DNA of 37,259 nucleotides, taken from the IMG/VR virus record IMGVR_UViG_3300037200_000153, positions 1-37,259 of that record, one strand, 5' to 3'. This document shows positions 15,887-36,204 of this stretch, piece by piece (position 1 is the stretch's first letter; each line of letters begins with the position of its first letter). Under the pieces are notes generated by a model, which did not search any database, was not told the DNA's origin, and saw only the letters and a list, made by a program, of their open reading frames with translations. Source of the stretch: a virus. The position numbers and the translations under genes were made by a program.

Positions 15887-16616
15887 TTTGTTTTTTCTCC
15901 GTATACCCTTAAGAAGATGACATCCATTTGCTTTAACACCTGTACTTCCCAGCGGTCAATATCAATATTTAATAATCGGGACCATTCTCCTATCTCATTA
16001 TACGATAGAGGCTCAGGGCCAAAGCCATTATTTCGACGACCGCCATTTAATTCCATGAACCATTTTAGTAAATAACTTAGCTCTGGTCTGAACGAGGTTG
16101 TAATTAAATCTTCCGGCGCTTCACCCGTTTGCTCCGCAACCTGTTCAAGATGTTGTTTAAGCGTACCGCCTTTTTCATCCCTGAGGGACAGTCTTGTCTC
16201 TTCCTCAAGGTGTAAATACAGCTCGTTTATGATTTCTCGAAAAAATTCGTACGGTCTTTTACAAAGTCTTCAATCTGATCTCGGATCGGGGGATAAGCCT
16301 TCAATAGCTGAATTGCATTATCATTTGTAAAGGCGTAAGGTTCACCGTTGTAGACTAAACCGCTCCAACCAACAATGCACGCTGCTGTCATCGCCAGCGA
16401 ATCAGCGTCTATTTCCTCCATAGACTGTGTAAAGCGACCATTAAATTTCTGTAACCGCTTCAGTTTTTTGTTATCTTCTTTGCGCTTGTAAGCCAAGAAC
16501 TGATCACTGTCTTGACCAATAACTCTGAACTTCATATCGGTTGGCAGATTGGTTATAGGGTCATTAAAAATAAATTCTATCGGCTCATTTAAAAGTGTCA
16601 ATTCGCTTAAATCCAT
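15883..16616 (-). CDS. GT: Tail assembly chaperone GT, -1 frameshift product
   Basis: At T TTT TTC near the 3' end of the G gene, a -1 shift leads into an open frame that runs to the TGA at 15885-15883. Reading after the shift gives REIINELYLHLEE..., 118 residues with charged helical character, ending ...DVIFLRVYGEKTK. The fusion is 126 + 118 = 244 residues. The T frame has no good start of its own, and its stop overlaps the GTG of the tape measure (GTGA). This is the layout of lambda gpG/gpGT, in which a small fraction of ribosomes shift and the ratio of the two chaperones matters for tail assembly around the tape measure. Without the shift, 15887-16226 would be an unexplained 340-base gap. 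Confidence 0.88.
16227..16616 (-). CDS. G: Tail assembly chaperone G
   Basis: 129 residues directly downstream of the tail tube gene and upstream of the tape measure. It is acidic and helical (EDNKKLKRLQKF, YPPIRDQIEDFVKDRTNFF), of the length and position of gpG-type chaperones, which coat the tape measure during assembly and are absent from the mature tail. It terminates a few codons after the slippery heptamer (FFEKS, stop TAA). Start 16616 is preceded by AGGAGTTAGAGAGTT. Confidence 0.85.
   Translation of the reverse strand: MDLSELTLLNEPIEFIFNDPITNLPTDMKFRVIGQDSDQFLAYKRKEDNKKLKRLQKFNGRFTQSMEEIDADSLAMTAACIVGWSGLVYNGEPYAFTNDNAIQLLKAYPPIRDQIEDFVKDRTNFFEKS
16239..16245 (-). promoter_or_regulatory. 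-1 ribosomal slippery site in G/GT
   Basis: On the minus strand the zero-frame codons are AAT TTT TTC, which gives the heptamer T TTT TTC (X XXY YYZ). Both tRNA positions can re-pair after a -1 slip. The -1 frame is open for 118 codons beyond it, and the zero frame stops three codons later. No stimulatory hairpin was worked out by eye. Confidence 0.85.
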
Positions 16617-16692: not shown

Positions 16693-17601
16693 TCAATTAT
16701 GAGTAATTTTTAACTCGGTCCCTGTGGATGGATCTCTGAGTGCTATAAAGTCCATTGTCAACATCCTTGACTGTTCGGTAGAGACTGGGGATTTCAAGGT
16801 TGAGTATTTTACCTGAGGGAAGAGGAATGTGTAATGATGCCCTGAGGTCCCATCGTACAAAGTACAAGAGATGGTGGTGATGGTTTCATTGATGAATTTG
16901 TTCATCAATATAGCGTTACTGAAGTACGCTTGTAAGCTACCTGTAATCTTAGCTCGCCCGTACTCCATATAAGGAGTGGTGTTTTGACCAATAATAAAGG
17001 TTGGCCGAACGCTGTTATCAATTGTAAATTCAAGATCAGTAATAACCCCAAGTGTGGAGTTATTCTCTAAGATAGACCCCGTATAAGAATCATAAGGGCT
17101 AAATCCGGCACCTGCCACCAGCGGGATGGATGAGGCGGAGCTGGATGCAATTGCCATATCTGATCCAGCAAAACTGAAAGTGGTTGAAATCATAGCGTTG
17201 GGCTTGATACTCATTTTCATAGAGGTAATCATGCACCCTGTAAAGAGTCTGTATTGCCCAATATCTAATTGTTGGTCTTCGATAGATGCTGAGTAGGAGG
17301 TTGTACCCACGGTTAGGGTGCTGGTACTCCAAGCATTAAACATTGCCATTTTTAGCAAAGTATCATAATCCGCATCTCGGAAATCAACGACAATATCCCC
17401 AGAGATTTGCTTGTTCCCATGTCGATATACGGCAGTTTGTCGGTCACTTCTAATATCCGCGGACTCTAGTGAAGACACACTTAAGTCAAGTGTATTCTGA
17501 CCACGGGGGATATCTGCAAAGTGAGGGGTGGAAGGGGTAATACCATAACTCGATTCTAATATAAATCCTATTCCTGATCGGGAGCCTTGTGCGAATGCCA
17601 T
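16693..17601 (-). CDS. V: Major tail tube protein
   Basis: 302 residues. The sequence is beta-rich with a start SRSGIGFILESSYG and motifs SSLESADIRSDRQ, ISGDIVVDFRDADYD and YGRAKITGSLQAYF, characteristic of the phage tail tube family that includes long gpV-like proteins. It forms the hexameric tube of the non-contractile tail. It precedes G/GT and the tape measure as expected. Its leader contains AAAAAGAGAGAGTTAG. It is followed by a terminator hairpin. It is divergent from the plus-strand connector block, so it either has its own promoter within 17602-17673 or relies on read-through from the distant upstream late genes. Confidence 0.9.
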   Translation of the reverse strand: MAFAQGSRSGIGFILESSYGITPSTPHFADIPRGQNTLDLSVSSLESADIRSDRQTAVYRHGNKQISGDIVVDFRDADYDTLLKMAMFNAWSTSTLTVGTTSYSASIEDQQLDIGQYRLFTGCMITSMKMSIKPNAMISTTFSFAGSDMAIASSSASSIPLVAGAGFSPYDSYTGSILENNSTLGVITDLEFTIDNSVRPTFIIGQNTTPYMEYGRAKITGSLQAYFSNAILMNKFINETITTISCTLYDGTSGHHYTFLFPQVKYSTLKSPVSTEQSRMLTMDFIALRDPSTGTELKITHN

Positions 17602-17659
17602 ATATCTAACTCTCTCTTTTTAATTTATACCCTAACCTAAATTTTATCACGGGAAGCCT

Positions 17660-17665
17660 TATAAT
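17660..17665 (+). promoter_or_regulatory. Candidate -10 element for connector block
   Basis: TATAAT lies eight bases upstream of the ATG at 17674. There is no clear Shine-Dalgarno before that ATG and no good TTGACA-like -35 at normal spacing. If it is used, the transcript would be leaderless or nearly so. The sequence is AT-rich, so chance is possible. Confidence 0.35.
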
Positions 17666-17673
17666 TAATAATT

Positions 17674-18033
17674 ATGGACCTCATATCGCCAACAGATGTT
17701 TATAATATCATAAAGCAAGCTGACAGAACGATACAGCTTGTTCATGTGACTGATGGCGCTTATGTACCTGGCACAGGTAAAACTCAGACTACATCAACTT
17801 ACAATTTGTTGGGATTAATTATTAATTCTGTTGACATGATGGCTTCAGACGATAGGATCGTTGAAGATGGCAAGCGTCGGTGTATTATCCAAGCATTAAA
17901 TATTCCCAAGGTCCCCCTGAAAAAGGATTTTATAATTGACCCCAACAATAACCTTCAGTATCAAATAACGGATGTTCATCCCATCTACTGCGGAACAAGC
18001 GTATTGTATTACCAATTAGATATCCAAAGCTAA
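17674..18033 (+). CDS. Head-tail stopper/closure-like protein
   Basis: 119 residues on the plus strand, opposite to the surrounding structural genes. The sequence (DLISPTDVYNIIKQADRTIQ, KKDFIIDPNNNLQYQITDV) has the short beta-barrel character of head-closure or stopper proteins (lambda gpFII / SPP1 gp16 type). It is followed, with a 1-base overlap, by the tail completion gene, the usual partner. The stopper plugs the portal-adaptor channel and offers the tail docking surface. The family call rests on size, composition and neighbours. Confidence 0.55.
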   Translation: MDLISPTDVYNIIKQADRTIQLVHVTDGAYVPGTGKTQTTSTYNLLGLIINSVDMMASDDRIVEDGKRRCIIQALNIPKVPLKKDFIIDPNNNLQYQITDVHPIYCGTSVLYYQLDIQS

Positions 18034-18575
18034 TGGCGAATGAGAAGTTTTTACAGGCAATCGAAGCCTACATAGATGAAACAGAAATGAAGATGGATAC
18101 ATTTTTACGATTCTTCTGTTCAGGACTTCAGCGTGAGATTATGCGTCGTAACCCTGTGCTGACTGGATTCTCAAGAGCTTCATGGTACACATCGGTTGAT
18201 AGAAGCGCCCCAGGTCCTGAGGTTGGAATGGTGGATAACCCCCATTATAAGCAAAAGTTCCCAGGAGGTGGAATAGATTACCGCAAGCAAGTTCCGGATG
18301 CCAAGGCTGCCAAAGGTCAATCCCAACGGCAAACCTACAATGAGCGCAAGAAAATCAGGGCAGGGAAAATTGTTTATATCATGAATAATTGTGTTTACAT
18401 CAGGGTGTTGGAATATGAGTCAAAACATCAAGGTTTTGTGAGAGACGCTGTTTCCTCCGCCGCTCGGATTGGACAGGAAGCCCTAGCAAAATGTACCAAT
18501 ATGAATAAATCTCAGCTTAACAGTTATGTTATCCCTACAGAGTTTGATCCCGCCACATTGCCAGATGGGGAGTAG
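18033..18575 (+). CDS. Tail completion protein, gpZ/HK97 gp10-like
   Basis: 180 residues. The N-terminal half (FLRFFCSGLQREIMRRNPVL, TGFSRASWYTSVDRSAP) matches the pattern of tail completion / minor tail Z proteins, in which a 'P..TG..R.SW' motif follows an amphipathic helix. The middle contains IVYIMNNCVYIRVLEYESKH, the conserved 'i.N...Ya..lE.G' element of the same family in a diverged form. It lies between stopper and tail terminator, the canonical position. It should act at the head-tail junction. Confidence 0.75.
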   Translation: MANEKFLQAIEAYIDETEMKMDTFLRFFCSGLQREIMRRNPVLTGFSRASWYTSVDRSAPGPEVGMVDNPHYKQKFPGGGIDYRKQVPDAKAAKGQSQRQTYNERKKIRAGKIVYIMNNCVYIRVLEYESKHQGFVRDAVSSAARIGQEALAKCTNMNKSQLNSYVIPTEFDPATLPDGE

Positions 18576-18577
18576 CC

Positions 18578-18973
18578 ATGTCCTACGCTGCTATTCGCAA
18601 CGCTCTTGAGATTCAGCTTAACACTTTAAGCGGCGCTCCTGTGATAGTCTGGGAGAATGATGATTACACCCGGACGGTTGGGACGCCTTATATTCAAGCT
18701 GGATTCCATCCGGTGATAACAGAACCGTCAGCCCTGGGGTCATCAGCCCTCACCTATTATAGTGGAAACCTGTTGGTTAATTTATATTACCCATTAAACC
18801 AAGGCCCTCAGGCTGCCGACGCTATCGCTGATCAGATTGTGGGAAGCCTGTTTAAATGGGGGACCACCTTAACAGGCGGTATTATTATCCTAGAGTCCGG
18901 GAGGGTTGAACCGCTCATCAGCGCTGAGTGGTATATGATCCCTGTTACAGTTCAATGGTACTGCTACTTATGA
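18578..18973 (+). CDS. Tail terminator protein, gpU/DUF4128-like, first copy
   Basis: 131 residues. It begins MSYAAIRNALEIQLNTLSGA and contains the motifs GTPYIQAGFHP, YSGNLLVNLYYPLNQGPQAA and DQIVGSLFKWGT, typical of DUF4128-type tail terminators that form a hexameric ring closing the tube at the head-proximal end. The C-terminus WYMIPVTVQWYCYL is the last strand. A near-duplicate follows with an ATGA overlap. Confidence 0.78.
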   Translation: MSYAAIRNALEIQLNTLSGAPVIVWENDDYTRTVGTPYIQAGFHPVITEPSALGSSALTYYSGNLLVNLYYPLNQGPQAADAIADQIVGSLFKWGTTLTGGIIILESGRVEPLISAEWYMIPVTVQWYCYL

Positions 18974-19395
18974 GTTACACGCTTATCAGAAATGCTTTAG
19001 AATTGCATCTAAGCACAATCGTATCAGCTCCCATCATTGTGTGGGAAAACGAAGATTATGATAGCAGCTCAGGGACACCTTACATTCATGCTCAATTGCG
19101 ACCTTTGGTTTGTAAGCCTGAGAGCTTAGGCCAATTGGCACTCACTCAATACGAGGGGGGTTTTCAGATTGATCTTAATTACCCATTAAATCAGGGCCCC
19201 CAGAGTGCCGACGTTATCGCCGATCAAATTGTAGGGAGTTTATTTAAATGGGGGACTATCCTAACAACCGACACCTGCCTTATCCGGGTACTCCGCTCAG
19301 AACGCTCAGGTCCGGTATTTAATGACACATGGTACAGGGTTCCAATCAGTGTGCAGTGGTACGCCTATCTAAGCAGTACCGATCCTAGCCCCTAG
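18970..19395 (+). CDS. Tail terminator protein, gpU/DUF4128-like, second copy
   Basis: I choose the ATG at 18970, which overlaps the stop of the first copy (ATGA) and aligns with its start (MSYTLIRNALELHLSTI); an upstream in-frame ATG at 18928 lies inside the first copy. 141 residues. It is clearly paralogous: IVWEN-DY, GTPYI-A, YPLNQGPQ-AD, IADQIVGSLFKWGT and VQWY-YL are shared. It has a slightly longer C-terminus. Its 3' end overlaps the convergent Rossmann-fold gene by 11 bases with no terminator visible. Two terminators could form two rings or a mixed ring. Confidence 0.75.
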   Translation: MSYTLIRNALELHLSTIVSAPIIVWENEDYDSSSGTPYIHAQLRPLVCKPESLGQLALTQYEGGFQIDLNYPLNQGPQSADVIADQIVGSLFKWGTILTTDTCLIRVLRSERSGPVFNDTWYRVPISVQWYAYLSSTDPSP

Positions 19396-20059
19396 ATTGA
19401 TTATGTGATACCTTTTTATTACGGCTACGCTTAAAGTCTTGCTGATCCTCATATAGAGATTCTGGCTCGACAAACACAAAGTTACGGATGGCACTTTTAA
19501 GATTACAATTCACAACCAACATATCCCTCAAGAAACATTGAGCCGCAATAATTTCTGCTTGCTTTACCCATCTGATATAATCACCGTTGGCAAGATGCCC
19601 GTCAAACCAGCAATATCCATTGTGCCAGTGATAGTGGGCCGGTGATAGGTTCATATCGAATCCGATGAGGATTATGACCTTGGATTGTTTTAGATAGGCT
19701 AGATTCATCGCTCCGTAGCCACTGTTGCCACAGGTAATAGTATCAGGGCTGTCTGACATCTTACCTTGCCATGAGGCCAATTTTAAATAGTTTACCCCTG
19801 GGATAAAGTCTGTGTAATTTGGTGGAACGGCTAACCACCTCTCCCCTGGGAATTGCTGAATTTCATGGCGTCGATTTTTAATCCAAGGACCGTCCATCGA
19901 AAATAAAATGTCGCATGGCGTATGGAATGCGGAGTCATTAACCCCGATCTTTAAGCCGTTGATACGGTTAAAGTCAACGCTACTAGCCGAAGAGCCTCCA
20001 CCAATAATAATGACCTTTTCTGATGGCCAATCTTGGGTGGTGGAGGTTTCTGTAAACAT
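19385..20059 (-). CDS. Rossmann-fold DUF115/GT42-like protein
   Basis: 224 residues. The N-terminal EKVIIIGGGSSASSVDFNRI is a Gly-rich nucleotide-binding loop, followed by IGVNDSAFHTPCDILFSMDG and later CGNSGYGAMNLAYLKQSKVI and LIGFDMNLS. This pattern is that of a family of phage proteins related to DUF115 (MptE/Maf) and sialyltransferase-like Rossmann folds. Activity is unproven; a glycosyltransferase or nucleotide-sugar role is possible. It follows the adaptor gene in the late operon and converges on the inverted block. Its Shine-Dalgarno AAGGA is part of a small palindrome (20061-20073) that could partly sequester it. Confidence 0.6.
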   Translation of the reverse strand: MFTETSTTQDWPSEKVIIIGGGSSASSVDFNRINGLKIGVNDSAFHTPCDILFSMDGPWIKNRRHEIQQFPGERWLAVPPNYTDFIPGVNYLKLASWQGKMSDSPDTITCGNSGYGAMNLAYLKQSKVIILIGFDMNLSPAHYHWHNGYCWFDGHLANGDYIRWVKQAEIIAAQCFLRDMLVVNCNLKSAIRNFVFVEPESLYEDQQDFKRSRNKKVSHNQSRG

Positions 20060-20084
20060 AAAGGAGGTTCCTTATGCGTGTCCA

Positions 20085-20543
20085 TCAATCGTGAAACACA
20101 TCGTCATCCATTGTTGAGTTATTCTCACCCGCCAATGGATTATTAAATTGGTTGTTACGAAATACGCTCAGCACCCGATCATTTGTACCCCTGTTAGCAA
20201 TAATATCAGATATAGAAATACCGGCAACAAATGGTATAGGTGCGGCGTTGGCTCTGGTAGCCTCTTCCCATAATTCTTCATAAAGCTTTAAATAGTGTTC
20301 AAGCTTTTGAGAGGCTGAAATACGAATGGTCTCAATAGCAGAGTCTACCAGGCGGCTATATTTAGCAGCCAACACCTTGCAGCACATTGCGGCAGCCTGG
20401 ATATTGTTATAACTGTACTTGCTTTGAACGTAGGCTATTTCGCCGTCCTGCAACTGTTGGTCGGTGGTATCGGTATCCCCGATCAGTAACCGAACCTCAT
20501 CAAGAGGTACGGTTAAAGGTGTTCCTGTATAAGTCCAGACCAT
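20085..20543 (-). CDS. Head-tail adaptor (connector) protein
   Basis: 152 residues. The opening (TVPLDEVRLLIGDTDTTDQQ, GEIAYVQSKYSYNNIQAAAM) is the typical start of phage head-tail adaptor proteins that dock under the portal ring. A helical region (KVLAAKYSRLVDSAIETIRI) follows. The C-terminus is acidic and flexible (NNSTMDDDVFHD). Position after the capsid gene and before tail genes agrees. Confidence 0.78.
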   Translation of the reverse strand: MVWTYTGTPLTVPLDEVRLLIGDTDTTDQQLQDGEIAYVQSKYSYNNIQAAAMCCKVLAAKYSRLVDSAIETIRISASQKLEHYLKLYEELWEEATRANAAPIPFVAGISISDIIANRGTNDRVLSVFRNNQFNNPLAGENNSTMDDDVFHD

Positions 20544-23784: not shown

Positions 23785-23947
23785 TTCTAAGCTCCTTATA
23801 GAAGTTTATGTAAGGGTTTGGAGAATAAATGATATCCCATACTGATTTAACAGGCGGTAATACTACCGGCCTATGTTGCAATTCATTATGGATTTGTTGG
23901 ACTGGGGTTAATGTTAATATCACAGCCAATAGGGGGTTGATTATCAT
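23768..23947 (-). CDS. Small overlapping ORF between protease and scaffold, 59 aa
   Basis: The ATG at 23947 overlaps the protease stop (ATGA) and the frame runs to a TGA inside the scaffold start region, 59 residues. It begins MIINPLLAVILTLTPVQQIH, a short hydrophobic stretch like a signal or weak membrane segment, then VVLPPVKSVWDIIYSPNPYI. It explains an otherwise empty 160-base gap and overlaps the scaffold gene by 17 bases. No family is recognised. Coupling geometry is the best evidence that it is translated. Confidence 0.45.
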   Translation of the reverse strand: MIINPLLAVILTLTPVQQIHNELQHRPVVLPPVKSVWDIIYSPNPYINFYKELRNGKKY

Positions 23948-25113
23948 GCGACAGCCTCCCGAATACCGTCACCGCCGATTGAGAAGGCTTTATAAACACC
24001 TTTTTTAACCATATCCCAAACCGTTGAATCGTTGACCTTATATCCGATATACCAGCCGACTTGCCCCAGATCAATCGCAAGAGCATCTTGCAATTGTTTG
24101 GTAAAAACCACAGACTCAACAATCTCGCCTGTTTGCTTACCCCAGTGCAGCTCATGACCTTCACGGTATTGCCTCATAAAGTCATGGGCGGCCTTAACCA
24201 ACATATCCTCATCATCAATAACATCGCCTTGAAGATCCACTACAGGCTTACCGTCTTTTTCTATAACTGAGGCATAGCCATAGACCATTTGTTTTTCTTC
24301 ATTGGACTTTTGTAGGCTAAATTTTAAGACAGGTAAGGGATTATCTAGTTGAACAGTTTTTTTACCCTCTAAGGTTAATGATGACGGTAATGGCTTAACT
24401 TGCTCAGGGTCCAGCATTATTTCAAAATGTGGGATGTCTAATGTAGCGATATCAAAGCTCATCGGGCAATCATAACTCAATGTAATGTGTAGGTTATGAT
24501 CATCAAAGTCCCATGATGCACCTATATTCAACGCTTGCCAAAACTGATCTGCAAGTTTATCATTATTAAAGCATAATGCCAGACATTCTTTGTTCTTACC
24601 TAATCTACGCAAGAAATAATTGCATTGAGGCACGCCGCAATAACTAATACTGCGGGGGGTTAAAATAGTCATATCATTGATTGGTTTATAACCACCAACC
24701 TGCTCTTTTGAATACAAGATTGTGCAATGAAGCTGATCTGCCGGTACGGGGTTTGGGATTTTGAAAGACTGCATCCAGGCTGTTAATAGGTCAGCACTAT
24801 GAGTATTTACAGGACAAGATGAATACATCCCACCGGGGGGCGGGGCGTTTTCTGATCGCTCATCATCATTATCGTTAATCTCAACATCCAACTCCATTGC
24901 TTGAGCCAGCTGTTCTAAGAGGAATATATCACCAGAATTAGATTTGGTATAAACACCGTCCTGGTGGGTATACCCAGCTTTATCTAAGGCATCCCACGCC
25001 GTGATATAGCGTACAGGGGGATAATTAGATCCGCATTCATTAAATGCCTTTCTAAAAATATCACGACCATGTGACGATGGAATTGCAAGCTTAATATTTT
25101 GTGGTAAATCCAT
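23944..25113 (-). CDS. ChaB-like + 2H phosphoesterase + XkdF head protease fusion
   Basis: 389 residues with three segments. Residues 3-57 (IPSSHGRDIFRKAFNECGSN, AWDALDKAGYTHQDGVYTK) match the ChaB domain pattern. Residues 105-240 show two HxT motifs 80 residues apart, LHCTILYS at 128-135 and LHITLSY at 208-214, the active-site hallmark of 2H phosphoesterases, which include RNA 2'-5' ligase/CPDase enzymes and phage Acb1 anti-CBASS nucleases. Residues 262-389 (MVYGYASVIEKDGKPVVDLQ, AIDLGQVGWYIGYKV, KAFSIGGDG) match the XkdF-type prohead protease. It lies between MuF and scaffold, the normal protease position. The leader is AGGAGAGAGTTAATT. The protease call is firm, the 2H call good, and the anti-defence role is an inference. 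Confidence 0.78.
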   Translation of the reverse strand: MDLPQNIKLAIPSSHGRDIFRKAFNECGSNYPPVRYITAWDALDKAGYTHQDGVYTKSNSGDIFLLEQLAQAMELDVEINDNDDERSENAPPPGGMYSSCPVNTHSADLLTAWMQSFKIPNPVPADQLHCTILYSKEQVGGYKPINDMTILTPRSISYCGVPQCNYFLRRLGKNKECLALCFNNDKLADQFWQALNIGASWDFDDHNLHITLSYDCPMSFDIATLDIPHFEIMLDPEQVKPLPSSLTLEGKKTVQLDNPLPVLKFSLQKSNEEKQMVYGYASVIEKDGKPVVDLQGDVIDDEDMLVKAAHDFMRQYREGHELHWGKQTGEIVESVVFTKQLQDALAIDLGQVGWYIGYKVNDSTVWDMVKKGVYKAFSIGGDGIREAVA

Positions 25114-34168: not shown

Positions 34169-34645
34169 ATGAAGATAACACTTGAAGGTAATGATATGGC
34201 TGAAATTTCAGCCATGGTGGAAATGTTTAAAACCAAAACCAGTCCTGAGGCGGCGGTGCCCAAGTTTACCAAGGTTGGGATTTATCGATTCCCAACAGAA
34301 TGGCTTGGGGTTGTGCAGATGTTGGTTGATGATTTCGTCACCTTTACCATGAAAGATTTGGATGTGTTTATTGGGGAGGGGGCAACCGTTGCTCAAAAGA
34401 CTGGGTTGGCAACCTACATTAAAACCCAGTTGAAAGACTCGATTATTGTTGAACAGGGGGCCTTGGTAGGGCGGTCGTATCTATTTACGCCTTACCGGGT
34501 GGAAAATGGGGTTCAGGTTTTGGCTACAGCCAGAATGATACGATCAGCCAACACTGTGCGAAGCGGGGGTGCTAAGACTGTGCGGCTACGCTATGATGAT
34601 AGGGATGGCGATGTTATTTCAGATGCGATGAGGACTGTCAGATGA
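34169..34645 (+). CDS. Hypothetical protein, 158 aa
   Basis: 158 residues. Start preceded by GAAGGAAC. The middle (VGIYRFPTEWLGVVQMLVDD, FVTFTMKDLDVFIGEGATVA) looks like a folded alpha/beta domain, the C-terminus is basic (SANTVRSGGAKTVRLRYDDR). The stop overlaps the ThyX start by 4 bases, so it is co-translated with ThyX. The short internal ATG at 34196 is a less likely start. Family not recognised. Confidence 0.6.
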   Translation: MKITLEGNDMAEISAMVEMFKTKTSPEAAVPKFTKVGIYRFPTEWLGVVQMLVDDFVTFTMKDLDVFIGEGATVAQKTGLATYIKTQLKDSIIVEQGALVGRSYLFTPYRVENGVQVLATARMIRSANTVRSGGAKTVRLRYDDRDGDVISDAMRTVR

Positions 34646-35337
34646 ATGTTGATTATATTGATCACATGGGGACGGATTTGACGGTTGTGAATGCCGCAAG
34701 AGTCTCACTAGCTAAACATCATGAGGTGATGGATGAAAGCGATGTGAGGCTGATTAAACATCTGGCTACACATGATCACTGGAGTCCTTTCAGTCATTGT
34801 CAGGTCCAATTTAGAATAACGGCCCCTCTGTTCGTCGCCAGGCAGTTGTGGAGAAGTCATGTAGGATTGTCGGGTGGGGATTGCGGCTATATGGGGTGGA
34901 ATGAGGTCAGTCGCAGATACGTCGATGAAGAACCTGAATTTTATGTACCGGATGAATGGCGAGGGAGACCACCGGGTTCGATAAAGCAGGGAAGTGGGGA
35001 CGAGGTTATTGTGGATAAAGTTGCCATTAAAGGGTTTGGTCATAAACTCACGCCTCACGAATGGTACGATTTAGCGATAGATAATATGGCAAGTATCTAT
35101 AACGGTCTAATAGGGGTTGGTATCGCCCCTGAGATGGCTAGGATGGTATTACCAGCGAGTGTTGAGACCTCCTGGTATTGGACAGGCTCCCTGGCGGCAT
35201 GGGGGAGGATCTGTAAACTAAGACTCGACCAACACGCCCAAAAGGAAAGTCGGGTAATCGCTGAACGGATAGCTGAGGAGTGTAGGCGATTATTCCCAGT
35301 AAGCTGGGAGGCACTGATAAATGGAAGGCGTAATTGA
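34642..35337 (+). CDS. thyX: Flavin-dependent thymidylate synthase ThyX, variant motif
   Basis: 231 residues. ThyX converts dUMP to dTMP using methylenetetrahydrofolate, FAD and NADPH. Support: IDHMGTDLTVVNAARVSLAK at the N-terminus, HDHWSPFSHCQVQFRI, ARQLW at 66-70, NEVSRRY at 87-93, and SVETSWYWTGSLAAW with QHAQKE near the C-terminus. The usual RHR-type signature is replaced: residues 67-73 are RQLWRSH, and about eight extra residues (SGGDCGYM) precede WNEVSRRY, compared with the phage form in which VGL runs almost directly into NEVSRRY. Catalytic competence is therefore uncertain, though length and other motifs look complete. Confidence 0.88.
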   Translation: MNVDYIDHMGTDLTVVNAARVSLAKHHEVMDESDVRLIKHLATHDHWSPFSHCQVQFRITAPLFVARQLWRSHVGLSGGDCGYMGWNEVSRRYVDEEPEFYVPDEWRGRPPGSIKQGSGDEVIVDKVAIKGFGHKLTPHEWYDLAIDNMASIYNGLIGVGIAPEMARMVLPASVETSWYWTGSLAAWGRICKLRLDQHAQKESRVIAERIAEECRRLFPVSWEALINGRRN

Positions 35338-35596
35338 TGATATAGCTACCCAGTATATGAGCCGGGTGGCTAAGTTGACAAAACATCAAAGAAAGATTTT
35401 GATGATGCATGGTGAGGGTTTGAGCCATAAAGCAATGGCTCAGCGGCTAGTAATAGCCATATCCACGCTCAAAACCAACATTAACGCCCTATACTTCAAG
35501 CTGGGGTTTCCGACGGATAAGGACCATAAAGCGTTTTGCCACGCGGCGATGTGTGGGGTGATTGCAGAAAGGTTGAGAGCTAATGGGGGACCATAG
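35321..35596 (+). CDS. LuxR-type HTH protein, 91 aa
   Basis: 91 residues. Residues 19-65 match the GerE/LuxR DNA-binding domain: LTKHQRKILMMHGEGLSHKA, MAQRLVIAISTLKTNINALY, FKLG. There is no receiver or ligand-binding domain. GGGAGG precedes the start, within the 3' end of thyX. It could regulate the phage genes around it or host genes. Stand-alone LuxR HTH proteins occur in several phages. Confidence 0.8.
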   Translation: MEGVIDDIATQYMSRVAKLTKHQRKILMMHGEGLSHKAMAQRLVIAISTLKTNINALYFKLGFPTDKDHKAFCHAAMCGVIAERLRANGGP

Positions 35597-35625
35597 TCCG
35601 GTAAACCCGGAGAAAGGAGAGTAGA

Positions 35626-36204
35626 ATGACGCTAGAAACCACACTTGATACTATAGCGGCGTATAAGCCCTGCGAGTCAGGCTGGGATAAACTCGTTGCG
35701 GGAATTGGCGACATTAAACGGAATAAACCGTTTGCGCTGTCAAGGATTATAGAGATAAACGATATTCAAGATACACTTTGGGCGCTGAAACATACGCAGC
35801 CGTTAGAGGTGTTTAGTCGCATTGTGGTCACTTTTGCCTGCGATTGTGCTGAAAGAGTGCTGCCGGTTTATGAAGCGAAATATCCAGAGAATAAAGCACC
35901 TCATGAGGCTATTCGGCAAGCAAGGCTATTTCTAGAACCTGATTTTTATGCAGCCGATGCTGCCGATGCTGCCAATGCTGCCTATGCCGCAGCCGATGCT
36001 GCCAAGGCTGCCTATGCCGCAGCCGATGCTGCCGATGCTGCCAATGCTGCCTATGCCGCCTATGCCGCTGCCTATGCCGCTACCAGGGCTGCCGATGCTA
36101 CCGATGCTGCTGCCTATGCCGCTGCCAAGGCTGCCTATGCCGCAGCCGATGCTGCTGAAATTGAGTGGCAGAAAGCCCGATTAAAGGAGTTGCTAGATGC
36201 CTGA
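35626..36204 (+). CDS. Imm5-like protein with Ala-rich repeat tail, 192 aa
   Basis: 192 residues. Residues 65-108 (VVTFACDCAERVLPVYEAKY, APHEAIRQARLFL) match the pattern of the Imm5-like immunity domain, where a conserved CDCAER-VLP...PREAI-AAR run precedes an Ala-rich helical part. Residues 108-178 are almost pure Ala/Asp/Tyr/Asn repeats (AADAANAAYAAADAAKAAYA), most likely one long helix. The DNA of this part contains exact repeats. Shine-Dalgarno AAGGAGA. Imm5 proteins in bacteria neutralise polymorphic toxins; whether this one does is unknown. Confidence 0.65.
   Translation: MTLETTLDTIAAYKPCESGWDKLVAGIGDIKRNKPFALSRIIEINDIQDTLWALKHTQPLEVFSRIVVTFACDCAERVLPVYEAKYPENKAPHEAIRQARLFLEPDFYAADAADAANAAYAAADAAKAAYAAADAADAANAAYAAYAAAYAATRAADATDAAAYAAAKAAYAAADAAEIEWQKARLKELLDA
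35950..36156 (+). repeat. Ala-codon repeat array
   Basis: Imperfect trinucleotide-phase repeats built of GCTGCC-GAT, GCTGCC-AAT, GCTGCC-TAT units. A 41-base stretch at 35950-35990 recurs exactly at 36019-36059, and a 35-base stretch around 35998 recurs at 36121. Length can vary in frame by slippage. Confidence 0.85.

Follow-up and report, generated by a model that had tools for sequence, protein, structure and literature searches.

Genes and features of the locus

The window, i.e. the whole stretch of DNA analyzed here, is a 37,259-base metagenomic phage record that consists of a single virus contig (IMGVR_UViG_3300037200_000153). All of its virion genes, from the tail fibre/tip to the terminase, are encoded on the minus strand, with the exception of four consecutive plus-strand ORFs that occupy positions 17674-19395 (Table 1). 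By profiles and homologues, this block was located between the head-tail adaptor and the tail tube genes, and it is oriented opposite to the latter. The first-pass annotation of this DNA had placed four junction genes on the plus strand and the other structural genes on the minus strand, and the ORF coordinates are as it gave them. To the right of the Rossmann-type gene that adjoins the block, the minus strand carries the adaptor gene and, at a greater distance, those for the major capsid protein (MCP), scaffold, protease, head morphogenesis, portal and terminase genes.

Table 1. Features in and around the plus-strand block, with the profile match or other basis for each.
Feature	Position	Strand	Basis
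Tail tube protein (Phage_tube_2), adjoining the block on the left	16693..17601	-	PF18906 5.9e-42, phrog_290 4.1e-68
Left edge, divergent gap between the tube and stopper starts	17602..17673		72 nt, 75% A+T
Head closure/stopper (Hc1; lambda FII position)	17674..18033	+	phrog_161 7.6e-5
Tail completion/Neck1 protein (lambda Z position)	18033..18575	+	phrog_169 2.1e-9
Tail terminator 1 (lambda U position)	18578..18973	+	PF13554 2.8e-19, phrog_179 1.3e-23
Tail terminator 2, tandem paralogue	18970..19395	+	PF13554 1.6e-19, PHROG tail terminator 4.4e-23
Right edge, where the ends of terminator 2 and the Rossmann gene converge and overlap	19372..19395		sequence
Rossmann-type/sialyltransferase-like gene, between adaptor and block	19385..20059	-	phrog_4603 4.8e-22
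Head-tail adaptor, adjoining the Rossmann gene on the right	20085..20543	-	phrog_1732 9.2e-24 (PHROGs names no function)

All four plus-strand ORFs were named as connector genes by PHROG or Pfam profiles; these independent matches agree with the earlier identification of a stopper, a completion protein and two terminators. The stopper was the weakest of the assignments by sequence (8e-8 by blastp against the positional homologue in related locus L049), and its structure was checked. The AlphaFold2 model (pLDDT 82) matched phage stopper and neck proteins with Z-scores of 8-10.5, among them the stoppers of 812, Pam3, Chi, T1 and SPP1 and the lambda neck, and almost all structural matches with Z of 8 or more were neck proteins. 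The identity of the completion protein is weaker than the other assignments: it has the support of its PHROG profile and of blastp (2e-8 against the positional homologue in L035), and of the fold only weakly, as the sole fold match to its model (pLDDT 81) was the tail completion protein of SaPI1 (Z 7.4; Foldseek E 4.5). Both terminators matched the Pfam family Phage_tail_terminator_5, their profile matches the solved terminator protein gp14 in the PDB, and the two are 58% identical in alignment. The start of terminator 2 was mechanically called at a GTG at 18928; translation more likely begins at the ATGA overlap (18970-18973). The completion and terminator 2 genes each start in an overlap with the gene before them, and a good ribosome-binding site precedes terminator 1. 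At its C-terminus, terminator 2 extends 7 residues (SSTDPSP) beyond most homologues, into the right edge of the block.

Other features of the contig were recorded in passing. An ORF in the head operon (23944-25113, minus strand) carries an Acb1-type anti-CBASS domain (PF23474, residues 95-243, 8e-23) fused to the head maturation protease (Peptidase_S78_2, residues 267-383, 3e-17); judged by these profile matches, a counter-defence domain is joined here to a virion protease. At 15890-16616 (minus strand) there is a lambda G/GT-like arrangement, in which the chaperone ORF ends AAT TTT TTC GAG AAA TCA TAA; this end contains a T TTT TTC slippery site, and the -1 frame is open as far as the tape measure gene. 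Between the adaptor and Rossmann genes, positions 20060-20080 (AAAGGAGGTTCCTTATG) form a near-palindromic, perfect plus-strand ribosome-binding site with an ATG, preceding a plus-strand ORF that is very short and lies upstream of the start of the Rossmann gene. The right-arm genes at 34642-36204 (plus strand) encode ThyX, a sigma-70 region 4/GerE HTH protein and an Imm5-like immunity protein.

Gene order and orientation in relatives

Related loci were fetched using the tube, a tube alignment, the MCP and a terminator alignment, and annotated phages were added. A six-frame profile search of the resulting 183 loci found both tube and terminator in 163, which were dereplicated by near-duplicate tubes to 50 distinct groups. 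The starting profiles included the window's own proteins; loci were chosen by similarity, orientation was no criterion, and matches on the opposite strand would have been counted. Among the matches close to a tube in the 163 loci, co-orientation with the tube was seen for the terminator in 163, completion in 160, the stopper in 143, the adaptor in 103 and the MCP in 82, with zero exceptions; the isolated phages CRP-6, Bhz54, PaMx28, V07 and PMBT28 are included in this set. In addition, genome contigs yielded 12 tube relatives, in which the terminator, where detected, was also co-oriented with the tube. A weak completion-like match after the tube in L104, on the same strand, is doubtful. A search of related phages for both orientations, as had been proposed, thus returned 163 collinear loci of 163, and the flipped orientation is unique to this contig in the sample. 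Tandem terminators were likewise found in none of the 163.

When the block is re-inverted, the order becomes adaptor - Rossmann gene - stopper - completion - terminators - tube. This is the order found in the relatives, and the claim that re-inversion restores it held for all of them. The profiles and the gene order of the relatives also support that the block occupies the place of lambda FII-Z-U. Positional homologues of the adaptor comprise 50 ORFs in the relatives, with identities up to 42%. Homologues of the Rossmann gene directly follow the adaptor in L041 and L036 and are also present in L021, and by these positions the gene is a member of a variable cargo slot. Because the adjacency of adaptor and Rossmann-type gene recurs in L041 and L036, only the four-gene block is displaced, which puts one junction between the cargo slot (Rossmann gene) and the stopper and the other between the terminator and the tube. 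The head-to-tail cargo slots themselves (L041:1775-5622, L036:4368-8674, L021:1206-7860) hold genes that were named by eye as sugar-, sulfotransferase- or methyltransferase-like; they precede the stopper in L041 and L036 and the adaptor in L021.

The relatives are distant. The tube is 47% identical to those of L013-L015, and the connectors of the block share 27-37% identity with their counterparts. No DNA-level relatives were found in phage records, terminator 1 or the adaptor alone retrieved no close relatives from viral contigs, and the terminase retrieved matches of only 30-32% there. With a tube identity of only about 47% even to the nearest of them, there is no sister genome in which the flip could be seen, nor a means of dating it.

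The connectors are therefore more diverged from the relatives than is the tube, and such a difference could point to replacement, in which the native connectors were lost and a connector cassette from another phage was inserted in reverse at the cargo slot by the Rossmann gene. That L041 and L036 have variable cargo separating the adaptor from the stopper, and that no relative has tandem terminators, is in line with that history. However, the block supplies exactly the genes that are missing, in exactly the native position where they are missing, its fourfold-site G+C (0.40) is that of the flanking genes (0.38-0.41), and faster divergence of connectors than of tube need not imply another origin. 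We regard replacement as improbable.

Edges of the block

At the left edge, the gap between block and tube is 72 nt, compared with a median terminator-tube distance of 16 nt in the relatives; the excess was counted in favor of inversion. The convergent ends at the right edge share 11 nt; here, terminator 2 and the Rossmann gene both take their stop codons from CTAGCCCCTAG. Given these shared stops and the 7-residue extension of terminator 2, a stop codon acquired at the junction probably ends one of the two genes, terminator 2 or the Rossmann gene. A terminator scan found no intrinsic terminator between the convergent ends. The palindrome at the right edge was considered as an inverted repeat; it accounts for the overlapping stops, but a partner at the left edge is absent.

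Both edges spare every gene; in this gene-packed region, the chance that two random cuts would do so is 0.0027. The longest exact inverted match between the edges (300 x 300 nt) was 7 nt, against a background of 7-11 nt, in agreement with the earlier by-eye impression that long inverted repeats are missing there. Since this similarity is within background, an assembler would have met no misleading repeat there. For the same reason, no invertible switch is indicated. The first-pass annotation had raised the idea of an invertible segment, and a phase-variable element that switches connector expression would account for a defined segment that has a candidate promoter region at one of its edges. 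In addition to the background-level repeats, no DNA invertase or integrase domain was present among the window proteins scanned (a subset of the ORFs, such that an enzyme encoded elsewhere could act), the collinear state was not found, and an off state of essential junction proteins would abolish virions. This idea is accordingly disfavored, and we consider it very improbable.

Composition and origin of the block

G/C skew at fourfold sites was calculated on the plus strand. The left-arm genes (+0.107) and the right-arm genes (+0.088) are G-rich, and the block is C-rich (-0.131). Because the plus strand is G-rich over both the minus-coded left and the plus-coded right genes, the bias follows the physical strand. 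The skew of the block is based on 99 G/C sites (binomial p of 0.02), and 0.4% of left-arm runs were equally extreme. The block thus has a composition that suggests it was on the minus strand until recently, which fits a recent inversion and equally well an artefact of zero age.

The main rival of inversion is indeed such an artefact, in which the flip seen in this contig was produced by misassembly or by a chimeric molecule (e.g. one generated during whole-genome amplification). The arrangement is known from a single contig and is shared with none of the relatives, the composition of the block is unadjusted, and an exact search with the tube start found no near-identical contig among the accessible records. 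An artefact would nevertheless need two independent wrong joins, both of them gene-sparing (approximately 0.003), at edges with no misleading repeat. In addition, the block corresponds exactly to one functional unit, headed by a candidate promoter. On this evidence, we judge an artefact unlikely.

The arrangement probably arose by a natural, in-situ and probably recent inversion that turned about 1.75 kb of the minus-strand morphogenesis operon. Of the “clean local inversion” proposed earlier, the gene identities, the order and the edges have been substantiated; the arrangement itself is seen in one contig, with an artefact as the chief competing explanation, and the proposal is thus partly supported. 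Arguing against inversion are the reliance on one metagenomic contig, the absence of a second example among the relatives, the distance of the nearest of these, a composition that suits an artefact equally well, and the lack of a Shine-Dalgarno site for the stopper and of a good -35 element, both described below.

Predicted transcription of the plus-strand block

The 72-nt gap is a candidate divergent promoter. On the plus strand, a perfect -10 hexamer, TATAAT (17660-17665), is located at -14 of the stopper, 8 nt ahead of its ATG. On the minus strand, an extended -10-like site, TGATAAAAT, is located upstream of the tube and faces it. A promoter scan found no good -35 for the putative plus-strand promoter, and no Shine-Dalgarno site was found near the stopper start. 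The proximity of the hexamer to the ATG, together with the missing Shine-Dalgarno site, leads to the guess of a near-leaderless stopper message. Promoter and terminator scans of the window overall were near shuffled expectation, with promoter-like sites near chance frequency, and claims about promoters are for this reason tentative.

Under the inversion, the four genes would now form a plus-strand unit of their own, with transcription starting in the AT-rich divergent gap; our most specific guess is that the near-leaderless stopper message arises from the hexamer named above. Late minus-strand transcripts would cross the block antisense and read through to the tube and the downstream tail genes, and a minus-strand promoter in the same gap may serve as an alternative or additional supply for the tube genes. 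Connector proteins are low-copy per virion and assemble in trans, so modest plus-strand transcription could be enough. It is conceivable, though we hold it only as a tentative proposal, that a viable siphovirus lineage has uncoupled its connectors from the late operon in this way, with their own divergent antisense transcript and independent control of low-copy supply.

Comparison with known systems

The order and direction of siphovirus virion genes belong to the best conserved features of tailed phages, and they are often attributed to coupled expression or to assembly. If the flipped genome is viable, the connectors need not be co-transcribed with the late operon, and the genome would offer a natural test of why gene order is conserved. 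A limited search of the literature for siphoviruses with flipped connectors returned no clear precedent, which is weak evidence. In large phages such as T4, virion genes are spread over several segments.

The lambda-type FII-Z-U-V block has the same functions in the same relative positions as the present block once the latter is re-inverted. It differs in that the block here is inverted relative to the operon and has the U function twice. Roseobacter phage CRP-6 (MK613348) and related marine siphovirus contigs share the tube family (39%), the terminator (33%) and the stopper, and have the same adaptor, stopper, completion, terminator and tube order as the re-inverted block; in contrast to the present contig, they have all of these genes on one strand, have a single terminator and lack the Rossmann-type gene in the slot. 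The IMG/VR contigs L041 and L036 are alike in having the adaptor and a homologous Rossmann-type gene followed by stopper, completion, terminator and tube, and the MCP of L036 is 46% identical to that of this contig. They differ in having several more sugar-type genes in the slot and connectors that are collinear with the operon. Opposite-strand genes among virion genes also occur in Rhizobium phage RHph_N28_2 and in Synechococcus phage Ssp-JY42. The latter was considered as a precedent for reversed connectors and rejected, as its reversed ORF is an HNH endonuclease. In these two phages, the flipped genes are inserted uncharacterised or homing-endonuclease ORFs, whereas here they are the connectors themselves.
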